A DNA stretch of 5,502 nucleotides from a bacterium (GTDB lineage Bacteria; Margulisbacteria; Marinamargulisbacteria; SXXA01), in NCBI GenBank assembly GCA_010027915.1, contig RGUG01000094.1, forward strand, positions 1 to 5,502. The letters are read 5' to 3'. The notes beneath the pieces are model-generated. The model was not told where the DNA came from, did no database searches, and worked only from the letters and a program-made list of their open reading frames with translations. This document shows, piece after piece, positions 2,121 to 5,502 of the stretch. Numbering within the stretch: the stretch's first letter is position 1; the number at the start of each line of letters is the position of its first letter. A program made the translations under genes and the position numbers.

Positions 2121-5100
2121 CTATAGCCGGCGAATGTAGCGGTAGCCTGTGACCGTACTAACCGGACAGGCGGGGGTGGTGCTGGTATTACACTCGGTAT
2201 AAAATTCAGGCAATGCCATACTGGTGGGAATCATAAAAATAAACCCACTGGGTATAAAGGCCGAACCATAAAAGGCAGTGGCCCTGACAGATCCATTCAC
2301 ATCAAGGGTGTATTGTGGATCCGTGGTGCCAATTCCCACTTTGGCATTTTTGATGGTCATGGTCGTCACCCCATTGGACACAAACGATAGACTATCCGTC
2401 GCATCATCCCCCACCCCAAATTCCAAATCATATTGATCCCCACTCACCAACTGGTATTTCATCCACCCTTTTTCAGTGGTACCAATGGCACCTGGTGCTT
2501 GCCATTCCACCATCGGGGTGGTGTCGACTAACTGAAGGGTTTGGGATTGAATGCGACCTTCCACACTCAAGCGTTCCGTGGGAGTGGTGGTCCCGATTCC
2601 GACATTGCCAGACGCCAATATCACCATTTTGGCATCCGATGTCACCAACGCCGTTGTACTACCTTGGTTAAATCGACTTAAGAAATACAAGTTGCCATCC
2701 AAATTGCTATCTTGAACCCCTCTGATTTCAAAATAGGGACCATTAACCGGATGCCGCCATTCCAACCCTGACGTGCTCCCTTGGAGGGTCACAAACGATT
2801 GATTGGTTTGAATGAGATTGGCCGATACCATCCCGGTGACCAACAAATCAGGCACCACCAAGCGTCCCGTTTTGCTCATCAATCCAACGTTAAAGGTCGT
2901 GACGTCCAAGGTATCGATTTCAGCTGTTTTTTTGACATATATGCTATTGGCAACCAATGGATTTGATAGCGTGAGTGATTGCGTGACGGTTAACTGAGTC
3001 ATCACCACCGGACGATTCACCACCAACTCTTGTACGGTTAGGGCACCCTGTACAGTCATGGATTGGGTGACCGTCAATGCCCCCACATTGAGGGCCGTGG
3101 CCGCATTAAGGGTGGTGGTGGTGAGGGCATTAACTTCAATACTGCTGGCTTTGAGTGCGTTGATACTGGCCAACTGACCCACCGTGAGTGCAGTGGGCAC
3201 CACCAACGTGGCGATGGTGGCCGTATTGGCCGATAACCGGTTGGCACTCACGAGATTGGCAACCCCCAATTGGGTGGTAATGTCTAGTTCAGAAAAAGTG
3301 GCCTTGTTGGTCACCGTCAACGACGTGGTGTAAAGGGTGTTAATGGTGGCGGTACCCGCCGTGAATTGGGTCATGGTGGCACGATCGGAAACGGTTAAGG
3401 ATCGGGTCACGGTCAGGTTGCCCATGGTCGCCAGATTGGACACATCCAACCGAGGGGTCGTCAATGTCCCTTTGTTCACAAATGACTGATTGACCATTAA
3501 ATCCCCAATGCTAACCGTCGTGGGTACCGTTAACGATTGGATGGTCATGATGTTACTGCTCACCCGATTAAAGGTCGCATCCCCTGCCGTCAGGCTATTG
3601 GATTGGAGGGTACCCGTGATGACCAATCGTCCCATGGTGCTATCATTGTTAACGGTTAAATAATTGATACTGGCAATACCACTGGCAGATAATAGCCCGG
3701 TCACCGATAAATCCGTCAAGTTGGTCGTGCCGGTCACCGTCAAATTGGTGATAGTCGACTGGTTGGCAATGGTGGCATTGTTGTTCACGACCAGATCCGC
3801 CAAGGTGGTGCTACCCACTACATTGAGGGATTGCATCCGCATATCGGTACCTGTTAGTGACCCAACCGTCGCAGCACCACCCACCGTCAACCCATTCGCA
3901 ATCTGAAGTTGACCCACATTAAGGAGTGAAGTCGCCGATAATGAACCCCTCACAATCAAATGATTTAATTCCGTGATACCCGATACATATAATTTATCAG
4001 GAACCCTTACCACCGGGCTGTTTAACCCACTTGAAACCACCAAATAATTGATGGCAGCCGATTGGTTGACCCTCAGCGATTGACTCACCACCAATTCGGA
4101 TACCGTTAAACGATTGGGAATGGATAGTGATCCAATGTAGGGAACCAAGGTATTCAGTGTCAGTTTATTAAGCGTCATGTTGTTAATACTGGCCGACTGT
4201 TGAACCCACAATGAGTTGGGAATCACCAACGTGTTAATCGTCGCCGCTTGCGGCACCACCAATTGATTCAATGTCGCTTTACCATTCACGACCAAATCAC
4301 GGGTCACCCATAACTCTCCGATTGTAAAAGACCCCATTACCTTTAAGGCAGTCACATCCAGTCGATTCATGGTGGCCGTCCCCGATACCATCAACTCATT
4401 CACACTGGTGCTCCCCACCACCTGCAATTGATTCAGGGTGGCCACCCCACTGACCATCAGATCACGGGTCACCACCAATGTATTGATGGTCACCCGCTGT
4501 CCCAATACCCTAAGACTACCCACATCCAATTGATTCATCGTGGCGGTATCTGACACCGTGAGGGTATTCAAGCTCGCAATGCCACTAACCAAGAGCGAAC
4601 GGGTCACCACCAAGGTGTTAATCGTCGCCCGCTGTGAGACCCACAACTGATTAACGGTTACTTGGGAGCCCAATACCCGCAGCGTCGTCACATCCAATTG
4701 ATTCATCGTGGCAGTGCCCGTGATGGTGAGGTGGTTGACACTGACAATCCCCAACACGATGAAATCCCGCGTCACCACCAAGGTGTTAATCGTCGCCACT
4801 TGTGGCACCACCAATTGGCGGATTGTTGCCAACCCCTCTTGAATGAGCATGGAACGGGTCACCACCCAATCACCCACCGTACCGGTCCCTAACACCTGCA
4901 ACGTCGTCACATCCAGTTGGTTGGCCGTGGCAGTGCCTGTGATGGCCAGGTTGTTGAGACTCGCCGTCCCACTCACCAGCAAGGATTGCGTCACCACCAA
5001 CGTGTTAATGGTCGCCACTTGCGGCACCACCAATTGATTCAGGGTGACCACCAACCCATTGATCAGCAAGGATCGGGTCACCACCATGTCACCCACCGTA

Positions 5101-5502
5101 CCGGTCCCCATCACCTGCAACGTCGTCACATCCAGTTGATTGGCCGTGGCAGTGCCCGTGATCGCCAGGTTGTTGACACTAACCATCCCCAAGACGATGA
5201 AATCCTGCGTCACCACCAACGTATTGACCGTCGCCACTTGCGGCACCACCAATTGGCGGATCGTCGCCACCCCCTCTTGAATGAGCAAGGATCGGGTGAC
5301 CACCAAGTCACCAAACGTACCGGTCCCTACTACCTGCAAGGTCGTCACATCCAATTGATTGGCCGTGGCAGTGCCCGTGATGGCCAGATTGTTCATGCTC
5401 ACCATTCCACTTACCACCAAGGATTGCGTCACCACCAACGTATTGACCGTCAGAGTCGATTGCAACAACACCAACTGGTTAATCGTCGCCACCCCACTCA
5501 CC
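2121..5502 (-). CDS. Giant repeat-rich surface/fibre-type protein, C-terminal 1126 residues (5' end outside window)
   Basis: The frame is open from the right edge to the TAG at 2123-2121. The first complete codon, GTG at 5501-5499, lies within a repeat and is not a start, so the N-terminus, any signal peptide and the promoter are out of view. Numbering from that codon, residues 1-336 are ordered modular repeats, about 337-899 are divergent copies of the same modules, and about 905-1070 hold two copies of a module ending in VGIGTT-x-P-x(4)-L-x-V-x-G (966-982 and 1054-1070). Residues 1071-1126 form a short tail. The repeat region is rich in Val, Leu, Thr, Ser, Asn and Gln, poor in charged residues and free of cysteine; the only two cysteines are C1104 and C1112. 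Regular L-x-V spacing suggests a beta-solenoid (inference). The closing motifs are known from bacterial surface proteins and phage tail fibres. No S74 chaperone, LPXTG, membrane helix, outer-membrane barrel or obvious sorting domain ends the protein. No phage genes adjoin, so a secreted adhesin or cell-surface fibre is favoured; exact function is unknown. Confidence 0.88.
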   Translation of the reverse strand, partial: VSGVATINQLVLLQSTLTVNTLVVTQSLVVSGMVSMNNLAITGTATANQLDVTTLQVVGTGTFGDLVVTRSLLIQEGVATIRQLVVPQVATVNTLVVTQDFIVLGMVSVNNLAITGTATANQLDVTTLQVMGTGTVGDMVVTRSLLINGLVVTLNQLVVPQVATINTLVVTQSLLVSGTASLNNLAITGTATANQLDVTTLQVLGTGTVGDWVVTRSMLIQEGLATIRQLVVPQVATINTLVVTRDFIVLGIVSVNHLTITGTATMNQLDVTTLRVLGSQVTVNQLWVSQRATINTLVVTRSLLVSGIASLNTLTVSDTATMNQLDVGSLRVLGQRVTINTLVVTRDLMVSGVATLNQLQVVGSTSVNELMVSGTATMNRLDVTALKVMGSFTIGELWVTRDLVVNGKATLNQLVVPQAATINTLVIPNSLWVQQSASINNMTLNKLTLNTLVPYIGSLSIPNRLTVSELVVSQSLRVNQSAAINYLVVSSGLNSPVVRVPDKLYVSGITELNHLIVRGSLSATSLLNVGQLQIANGLTVGGAATVGSLTGTDMRMQSLNVVGSTTLADLVVNNNATIANQSTITNLTVTGTTNLTDLSVTGLLSASGIASINYLTVNNDSTMGRLVITGTLQSNSLTAGDATFNRVSSNIMTIQSLTVPTTVSIGDLMVNQSFVNKGTLTTPRLDVSNLATMGNLTVTRSLTVSDRATMTQFTAGTATINTLYTTSLTVTNKATFSELDITTQLGVANLVSANRLSANTATIATLVVPTALTVGQLASINALKASSIEVNALTTTTLNAATALNVGALTVTQSMTVQGALTVQELVVNRPVVMTQLTVTQSLTLSNPLVANSIYVKKTAEIDTLDVTTFNVGLMSKTGRLVVPDLLVTGMVSANLIQTNQSFVTLQGSTSGLEWRHPVNGPYFEIRGVQDSNLDGNLYFLSRFNQGSTTALVTSDAKMVILASGNVGIGTTTPTERLSVEGRIQSQTLQLVDTTPMVEWQAPGAIGTTEKGWMKYQLVSGDQYDLEFGVGDDATDSLSFVSNGVTTMTIKNAKVGIGTTDPQYTLDVNGSVRATAFYGSAFIPSGFIFMIPTSMALPEFYTECNTSTTPACPVSTVTGYRYIRRL
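2292..2789 (-). repeat. Duplicated C-terminal module ending in VGIGTT
   Basis: Two copies lie in tandem: residues 905-982 (2789-2556) and 988-1070 (2540-2292). Both begin TLQ, reach an aromatic pair (LEW or VEW) eight to nine residues later, pass through a strand-rich segment (YFLSRFNQGSTTALVTSDAK versus LEFGVGDDATDSLSFVSNG), and end NVGIGTTTPTERLSVEG or KVGIGTTDPQYTLDVNG. The closing motif is a familiar element of beta-rich fibre heads in bacterial surface proteins and tail fibres. The two copies are clearly related but well diverged, unlike the fresh repeats at the other end of the gene. Confidence 0.75.
2805..4493 (-). repeat. Divergent continuation of the 11/17-residue modular repeats
   Basis: Residues 337-899 of the visible protein keep the module signature [AS]-[TS]-[IVLM]-N-x-L-x-V but lose the fixed 73-residue order. 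The start is still readable: 17, 11, 11, 16, 17, 11 and 17-residue modules (VTINTLVVTRDLMVSGV through ATINTLVIPNSLWVQQS, residues 337-435). After about residue 440 the copies are individually recognisable (STITNLTVTGT, ASINYLTVNND, ATMGNLTVTRSLTVSDR, ASINALKASSI), with variable spacing and substitutions such as G for N. This stretch is coding throughout; no other gene on either strand is supported within it. Confidence 0.8.
4494..5489 (-). repeat. Tandem array of 73- and 56-residue coding units (219 and 168 bp) with 438-bp higher order
   Basis: Five consecutive in-frame units, read in protein order, occupy 5489-5268 (74 residues), 5267-5049 (73), 5048-4830 (73), 4829-4662 (56) and 4661-4494 (56). 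A full unit is made of modules of 11, 17, 11, 17 and 17 residues, for example ATIRQLVVPQV, ATVNTLVVTQDFIVLGM, VSVNNLAITGT, ATANQLDVTTLQVMGTG and TVGDMVVTRSLLINGLV. The last two units lack the fifth module. The DNA periods are exact: the CAGTGCC element occurs at 4712, 4931, 5150 and 5369, always 219 bases apart; CATCCAAT recurs at 4523 and 4691, 168 apart. Units 1 and 3 share SL-x-VSG in the second module, while units 2 and 4 share DFIVLG and the QEG-x-ATIRQ entry, giving a 438-bp higher-order period. One 71-base stretch compared between units 2 and 4 (from 5198 and 4760 rightwards) differs at 8 positions. The array continues past the right edge. Confidence 0.92.

Follow-up and report, generated by a model that had tools for sequence, protein, structure and literature searches.

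A tandem array of 11- and 17-residue modules in a probable fibre protein of an uncultured Marinamargulisbacteria lineage

The locus and its fibre-protein gene

The window analysed here is the whole stretch of 5,502 nucleotides on contig RGUG01000094.1 (assembly GCA_010027915.1), which is assigned to the Marinamargulisbacteria. Its minus strand carries an open reading frame (ORF; 2121..5501) of at least 1126 amino acids, which is open at the 5′ end, has its N-terminus beyond the window, and ends in a stop codon at 2121-2123. The visible part of the protein begins with a tandem array of short modules and closes with segments that match mosaic adhesive trimer (MAT) fibres. The modular repeat is real and well formed, and the protein that carries it, though unusual in its details, probably belongs to a familiar general type of fibre protein.

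Five units, all on the minus strand, lie in tandem within the first 337 visible residues. Residues 1-17 (5451..5501) are the tail of a preceding unit, truncated by the window edge. Unit 1 (5232..5450, residues 18-90), Unit 2 (5013..5231, residues 91-163), and Unit 3 (4794..5012, residues 164-236) have 73 residues each, Unit 4 (4626..4793, residues 237-292) has 56, and Unit 5 (4491..4625, residues 293-337) has 45. Diverged copies follow. Past position 4494 the array runs on in degenerate form as a shaft continuation (2862..4490, residues 338-880), where modules of 11, 16, and 17 residues are clear to about residue 437 and diverged thereafter; its end near residue 880 (position 2862) was placed by eye. 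Closer to the C-terminus are a first GNVGIGTTTPTERLSVEG segment (2538..2618, residues 962-988), inside a region that matches structurally solved MAT fibre chains, and a second KVGIGTTDPQYTLDVNG segment (2268..2348, residues 1052-1078). The last 48 residues (2124..2267, residues 1079-1126) form a C-terminal tip with two cysteines, which has no match of its own in the Pfam, PHROG, or PDB-sequence searches of the C-terminus.

Repeat units and module grammar

The periodicity of the array is far above chance. A DNA-level tandem array spans 4675-5441 with a period of 219 nucleotides, 3.5 copies, and 79% matches. In the protein, 73 is the best lag of residues 1-336, with an identity of 0.58, whereas none of 300 shuffles exceeded 0.195. 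The anchor pattern [TS][IVLMFA][NGYRHE]x[LMVW]x[VILA] matches 32 times in residues 1-460, compared with a mean of 1.4 and a maximum of 6 in 500 shuffles; the pattern was picked by eye from the same sequence, and this count is not independent of the data.

Units 1-3 share 75-86% of their amino acids pairwise. Residues and nucleotides are alike in being 86% identical between Units 1 and 3 and 81% identical between Units 1 and 2, and Units 2 and 3 agree at 75% of amino-acid and 79% of nucleotide positions. Differences per pair fall more often on third codon positions (19-24) than on first (8-13) or second (3-9) positions, an excess that, judged from the counts and not by a formal test, suggests a protein sequence under selection. 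Since S-L-x-V-S-G and D-F-I-V-L-G variants of a hexapeptide alternate across successive Units 1-4 (4626-5450), the array may have grown by duplication of unit pairs (438 nucleotides).

With module starts taken from the anchor, each 73-residue unit reads 17+11+16+18+11, the 56-residue unit is exactly 17+11+17+11, and the 45-residue unit is 17+11+17. The modules of 16 and 18 residues are one-short and one-long versions of the 17-residue module and together make 34. Across residues 6-437, the 30 anchor-delimited modules have lengths of 11 (12 modules), 12 (1), 16 (4), 17 (10), and 18 (3). The first-pass annotation had described units of 73 and 56 residues, and both sums are correct. It had written the long unit as 11+17+11+17+17; the tandem array, the units, and the module order (up to rotation) stand, and one module boundary is off by one residue, so that a neighbouring pair of modules measures 16 and 18 residues instead of 17 and 17. 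Its description of the 17-residue module as an 11-residue module plus a hexapeptide of the type SLxVSG mostly holds, as 8 of the 10 fit a loosened form of that pattern at positions 10-15.

Hydrophobic residues, counted here with alanine included, recur at fixed places. Positions 2, 5, and 7 are hydrophobic in every module of 11, 16, 17, or 18 residues. The 11-residue modules (12 of 12 at these three positions) add position 11 in 11 of 12 cases. All ten 17-residue modules are hydrophobic at positions 2, 5, 7, 12, 13, and 17, and eight of them also at position 11, so that they gain a second hydrophobic stretch at 11-13. No 11- or 17-residue module has a hydrophobic residue at position 3, 4, or 9. 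This distribution backs the strand logic proposed earlier and suggests short strands that step 5+6 in the 11-residue module and 5+6+6 in the 17-residue module; breaking a spacing down into fives and sixes is informative only below 20 residues.

Profile matches and predicted structure of the array

The array (residues 1-460) matches phrog_4549, annotated as a tail fiber protein, at E 1.2e-11 with the best stretch at 249-444, and residues 461-880 match the same profile weakly (E 0.0011); PHROGs have no curated cut-off. The true array also matches a function-unknown PHROG at 3.4e-5. When residues 1-460 were reversed, phrog_4549 was unmatched and the best PHROG was another family at E 0.0028. In Pfam, residues 1-460 alone reach Bactofilin (PF04519) with 28.0 bits against a cut-off of 27.9, and the full ORF gives 19.1 bits, below the cut-off. 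The reversed array scores 10.2 bits for Bactofilin and 19.8 bits for another Pfam family, below that family's cut-off. None of the Pfam models reached its cut-off with the full ORF, and no NCBIfam model was near. The earlier statement that the arrangement belongs to no named repeat family thus stands for the full ORF in Pfam and NCBIfam, and needs qualification for residues 1-460, which score just above the Bactofilin cut-off and match phrog_4549. An 11-/17-residue hexapeptide β-solenoid repeat was not found in the literature by a narrow search, which is no proof of absence. Against PDB chains, the array profile had no match at E ≤ 10; MAT proteins are represented in the PDB by just their C-terminal parts.

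Left-handed hexapeptide-repeat solenoids have a strict six-residue step and 18 residues per rung. That assignment was rejected for the array, where the steps, as read from the hydrophobic pattern, mix 5 and 6; hexapeptide-type Pfam matches occurred only in residues 461-880, at E 0.91 and 1.8 and below the cut-off.

As a single chain, the array is modelled by AlphaFold2 (AF2) as one continuous all-β structure with no domain breaks and a predicted local distance difference test (pLDDT) score of 79.6, the five models running from 79.6 down to 53.1. The model shows neither the separate globular domains nor the disorder that the first-pass annotation had set against a continuous solenoid. On this very question, however, AF2 cannot be relied on for perfect repeats, for which it is reported to yield confident false solenoids (PMC11795689). 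With Foldseek, two of 207 matches of the array model to viral models are at E ≤ 0.001 (best 1.1e-4), and the ten best of the 207 comprise Synechococcus phage baseplate wedge initiators, a tail fibre protein, an S74 protein, and two unnamed proteins. Against the PDB, the array model had no Foldseek match at E ≤ 0.001. No fold family was taken from the VIA-align rows, which re-examine non-significant Foldseek matches; none of the best 46 rows is titled MAT fibre, bactofilin, or phage fibre, an outcome that excludes nothing.

These results bear on a single-chain triangular β-helix of about 17 residues per rung, bactofilin-like, which would stand alone or form three parallel solenoids in a trimer, as tailspikes do. 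The Bactofilin score of residues 1-460 and the continuous model are what such a fold would give, and the fold is nonetheless rather unlikely. The 11-residue modules (12 of 30) would be two-thirds of a rung, and with each of them the faces would shift one-third of the way around the axis. Lag 11 is among the 14 best lags of residues 1-336 and lag 17 is not, although it is present in residues 337-620, a weak comparison that cuts both ways. The 28 bits for Bactofilin are little above the 19.8 of the reversed control, and the drop to 19.1 bits on the full ORF, the spread of the AF2 models together with the tendency of AF2 toward false solenoids, and the lack of a PDB match by Foldseek at E ≤ 0.001 also stand against it.

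The C-terminus

The C-terminal 247 residues match five PDB sequences at E ≤ 10. The best is bd2133 (8ond) at 2.2e-8, followed by 8oml (7.6e-4), 8ol4 (0.0064), 8ojn (0.027), and 8on4 (0.069). The latter four bear the label "cell wall surface anchor family protein" and, from these labels and the neighbouring entry codes, are presumably also MAT proteins. None of the five was recovered with the reversed C-terminus. Among PHROGs, the C-terminus matches 3269 ("tail protein") at 1.7e-9, and 9942 (3.9e-8) and 18345 (2e-6), both "tail fiber protein". An AF2 model of the same 247 residues, built from a two-row alignment, has a pLDDT of 30. No S74 domain was matched by Pfam in the ORF or the C-terminus, which would fit the NS74 subgroup of MAT proteins.

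PMC10769870 reports that Bdellovibrio MAT fibre tips, including Bd2133, were solved as trimers, and that the proteins had carried annotations such as "cell wall anchor" or tail fibre. It describes for the MAT superfamily a conserved β-rich domain of about 130 amino acids directly after the signal peptide, several paralogues with different tips per genome, and, in HD100, an S74 ending in 13 of 21 proteins and another tip in 8 of 21 (PMC10769870).

A two-partner-secretion or autotransporter exoprotein would combine a right-handed β-helix shaft with an N-terminal secretion domain, here placed beyond the window. This origin is very improbable: no Pfam match to two-partner-secretion or autotransporter families was obtained, no barrel family was matched at the C-terminus, and the matches found there are to MAT and tail-fibre proteins. 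The structural rows for the array are no help to it, as they only re-examine non-significant Foldseek matches.

Relatives that carry the modules

The full-ORF search returned 12 proteins at E ≤ 0.001 among 7998 candidates scored. At least four of them carry the modules (P0001, P0002, P0003, and P0005). With residues 1-460 as the query, P0001, P0003, and P0005 pass 0.001 among 7983 candidates scored; P0002 is absent from that search and is 44-45% identical to the array in local BLAST, so the search is not exhaustive and four is a lower bound. The relatives alignment combined the window array with fragments of P0001, P0002, and P0003, P0005 being left out. P0004 and P0006-P0012 were set aside, as they seem on reading to match through common GNVGIGTTSP segments.

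P0001, P0002, and P0005 share the locus-tag prefix EBZ35 and may be partial pieces of one gene or several. They code for 1066, 937, and 997 amino acids on contigs of 3200, 2815, and 2991 bases, and because the contigs barely exceed the coding sequences, the genes are larger than the pieces. The commonest anchor spacings of P0001 below 34 are 17 (8 times), 11 (6), and 10 (4), with one spacing of 8. N-terminal to the modules, P0001 has QGGTG/KGGTG and GDGSxLTN segments, and P0001 and P0005 have GIG segments, all of which we take to be typical of fibres. P0003, a JGI protein, has glycine-rich stretches between shaft segments (PF21722 at 20 of 24.3 bits, below the cut-off), weak tail-fibre PHROG matches, and a C-terminus that differs from that of the window protein; its inserts and different ending may reflect swapping of tips and inserts.

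Within the candidates scored, the shaft grammar is found in these four relatives and not elsewhere. In genome contigs the array profile gave 27 pattern matches, none confirmed as a relative; in viral contigs no relative was confirmed among 23 pattern matches of the array profile and 2 of the full protein; and plasmids had no match at 1e-5. The contig scans rely on exact short peptides, which distant relatives can escape.

Genomic neighbourhood

The three other genes of the window look bacterial. Positions 3-416 encode a C-terminal fragment of a PstS-like phosphate-binding protein (61.8 of 205 bits, well below the cut-off), and 441-1730 an O-acetylhomoserine sulfhydrylase. The third gene, gcvH, lies on the plus strand from 1734 and ends at 2120; the fibre stop codon occupies 2121-2123 on the minus strand, and the two convergent genes have zero spacer. 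The sulfhydrylase has relatives at 100% (P0013), 91% (P0014), and 83% (P0015) identity, then at 70% or less (best 120 of 7999), and the closest of 42 GTDB-representative loci reaches 60%. These identities suggest a poorly sampled bacterial lineage.

The protein could also be a fibre on the virions of a prophage, or on a phage-like particle, rather than a cell-surface adhesin. The tail-fibre PHROG matches and the likeness to cyanophage baseplate wedge initiators speak for such a fibre, which is still improbable given the ordinary bacterial-looking neighbours, the gcvH end that abuts the fibre stop, and the viral-contig scans, which confirmed no relative.

Proposed architecture and role

With moderate confidence, the ORF is read as encoding part of a long surface adhesin of an uncultured bacterium, one that resembles phage tail fibres and is probably a homotrimer; the encoded part would be its shaft and its C-terminal tip. 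This reading draws on the module grammar, the hydrophobic alternation, the phrog_4549 match of the array, and the MAT match of the C-terminus. For the array, a fibre shaft is a better reading than a stand-alone single-chain solenoid, and each chain of a trimer may contribute one strand to every level. A trimer is favoured on three grounds: the region C-terminal to the array matches the tips of trimeric fibres, the relatives bear the presumed fibre-like segments N-terminal to their modules, and a mix of two- and three-strand modules keeps register when each level consists of the same strand from three chains; the last argument is geometry, not measurement. The 12 of 30 modules that are 11-mers, with two strands and not three, count for the trimer in this sense. 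The stand-alone solenoid of the first-pass annotation was proposed without the C-terminal context, and the match to trimeric MAT tips favours a fibre shaft in its place.

Three points weigh against the adhesin. P0001, P0002, and P0005 match no PHROG, phrog_4549 included, at 0.01. The array sequence has a raised profile background, because the reversed control reaches 19.8 bits in Pfam and E 0.0028 among PHROGs, and because the true array hits a function-unknown PHROG. The reversed C-terminus also matches two unrelated PDB chains, at E 0.031 and 0.75.

In a trimeric adhesin, each module would provide two (11-mer) or three (16- to 18-mer) short β-strands linked by tight turns, and each strand would pair with its equivalents in the other two chains, possibly intertwined, to form one level of a β-prism. 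Gain or loss of a hexapeptide would add or remove one level with the register kept, and unequal recombination of the 219-nucleotide units could lengthen the fibre. The GIGTT segments would close off the shaft and expose the tip to a ligand on a surface. The protein likely serves, as MAT proteins do, as a surface fibre that bears its small C-terminal tip toward a ligand. It is also conceivable, more tentatively, that the modules form a lineage-restricted repeat family, a length-tunable kit for trimeric fibres in which modules of 11 and 17 residues, with two and three strands, are gained, lost, or recombined by single strand-levels with the register intact, giving very large adhesins in an uncultured lineage.

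Likely strand boundaries are legible from the sequence of the window array, whose natural units differ from one another by a single module. Should the trimer be true, one could test directly how fibre shafts tolerate shifts in register and how their length is controlled, and designed fibres could take the modules as a template. The adhesin, if real, would bring MAT-type or tail-fibre-type fibres into a lineage with no near relative among GTDB representatives in the exact-peptide scans.

Comparison with known systems

Bactofilin: This is a short protein with one β-helical core domain. The score of residues 1-460 alone, 28.0 bits against 27.9, brings the array close to it. In contrast, the window ORF has at least 1126 amino acids and a fibre-type C-terminus, and its full length scores 19.1 bits.

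T4 fibres: The shafts of gp34 and gp12 resemble the array in their aliphatic strands, in turns of glycine, serine, and asparagine, and, if the trimer reading holds, in intertwined strands. The gp34 triple β-helix is described in these terms and as lacking clear sequence motifs (PMC5537660). The window array differs in its strong motif, and has no sequence match to T4 fibres.

Cyanophage proteins: The array matches the profile of the phrog_4549 family (E 1.2e-11). The baseplate wedge initiator of Synechococcus phage ACG-2014f (AIX30748.1; 279-4961, 1560 amino acids) has L-x-V-x-G strands followed by A/S-T turns and a VGINTTTP segment, in line with the window protein. However, pairwise identity to cyanophage baseplate wedge initiators is 26-27% with E ≥ 0.04 (best 15 of 55 records), and AIX30748.1 has the anchor just 8 times, scattered over 1560 residues.

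Bdellovibrio MAT proteins: The profile of the 11/17-module array has no PDB match at E ≤ 10, which sets the fibre ORF apart from Bd2133 (8OND); its N-terminus, where a MAT domain would lie, is beyond the window. The lack of a detected S74 domain would fit the NS74 subgroup. In common with Bd2133, the ORF has C-terminal GNVGIGTxxPTxxLxVxG segments (8ond, E 2.2e-8) and a long fibre that is followed by a small tip.

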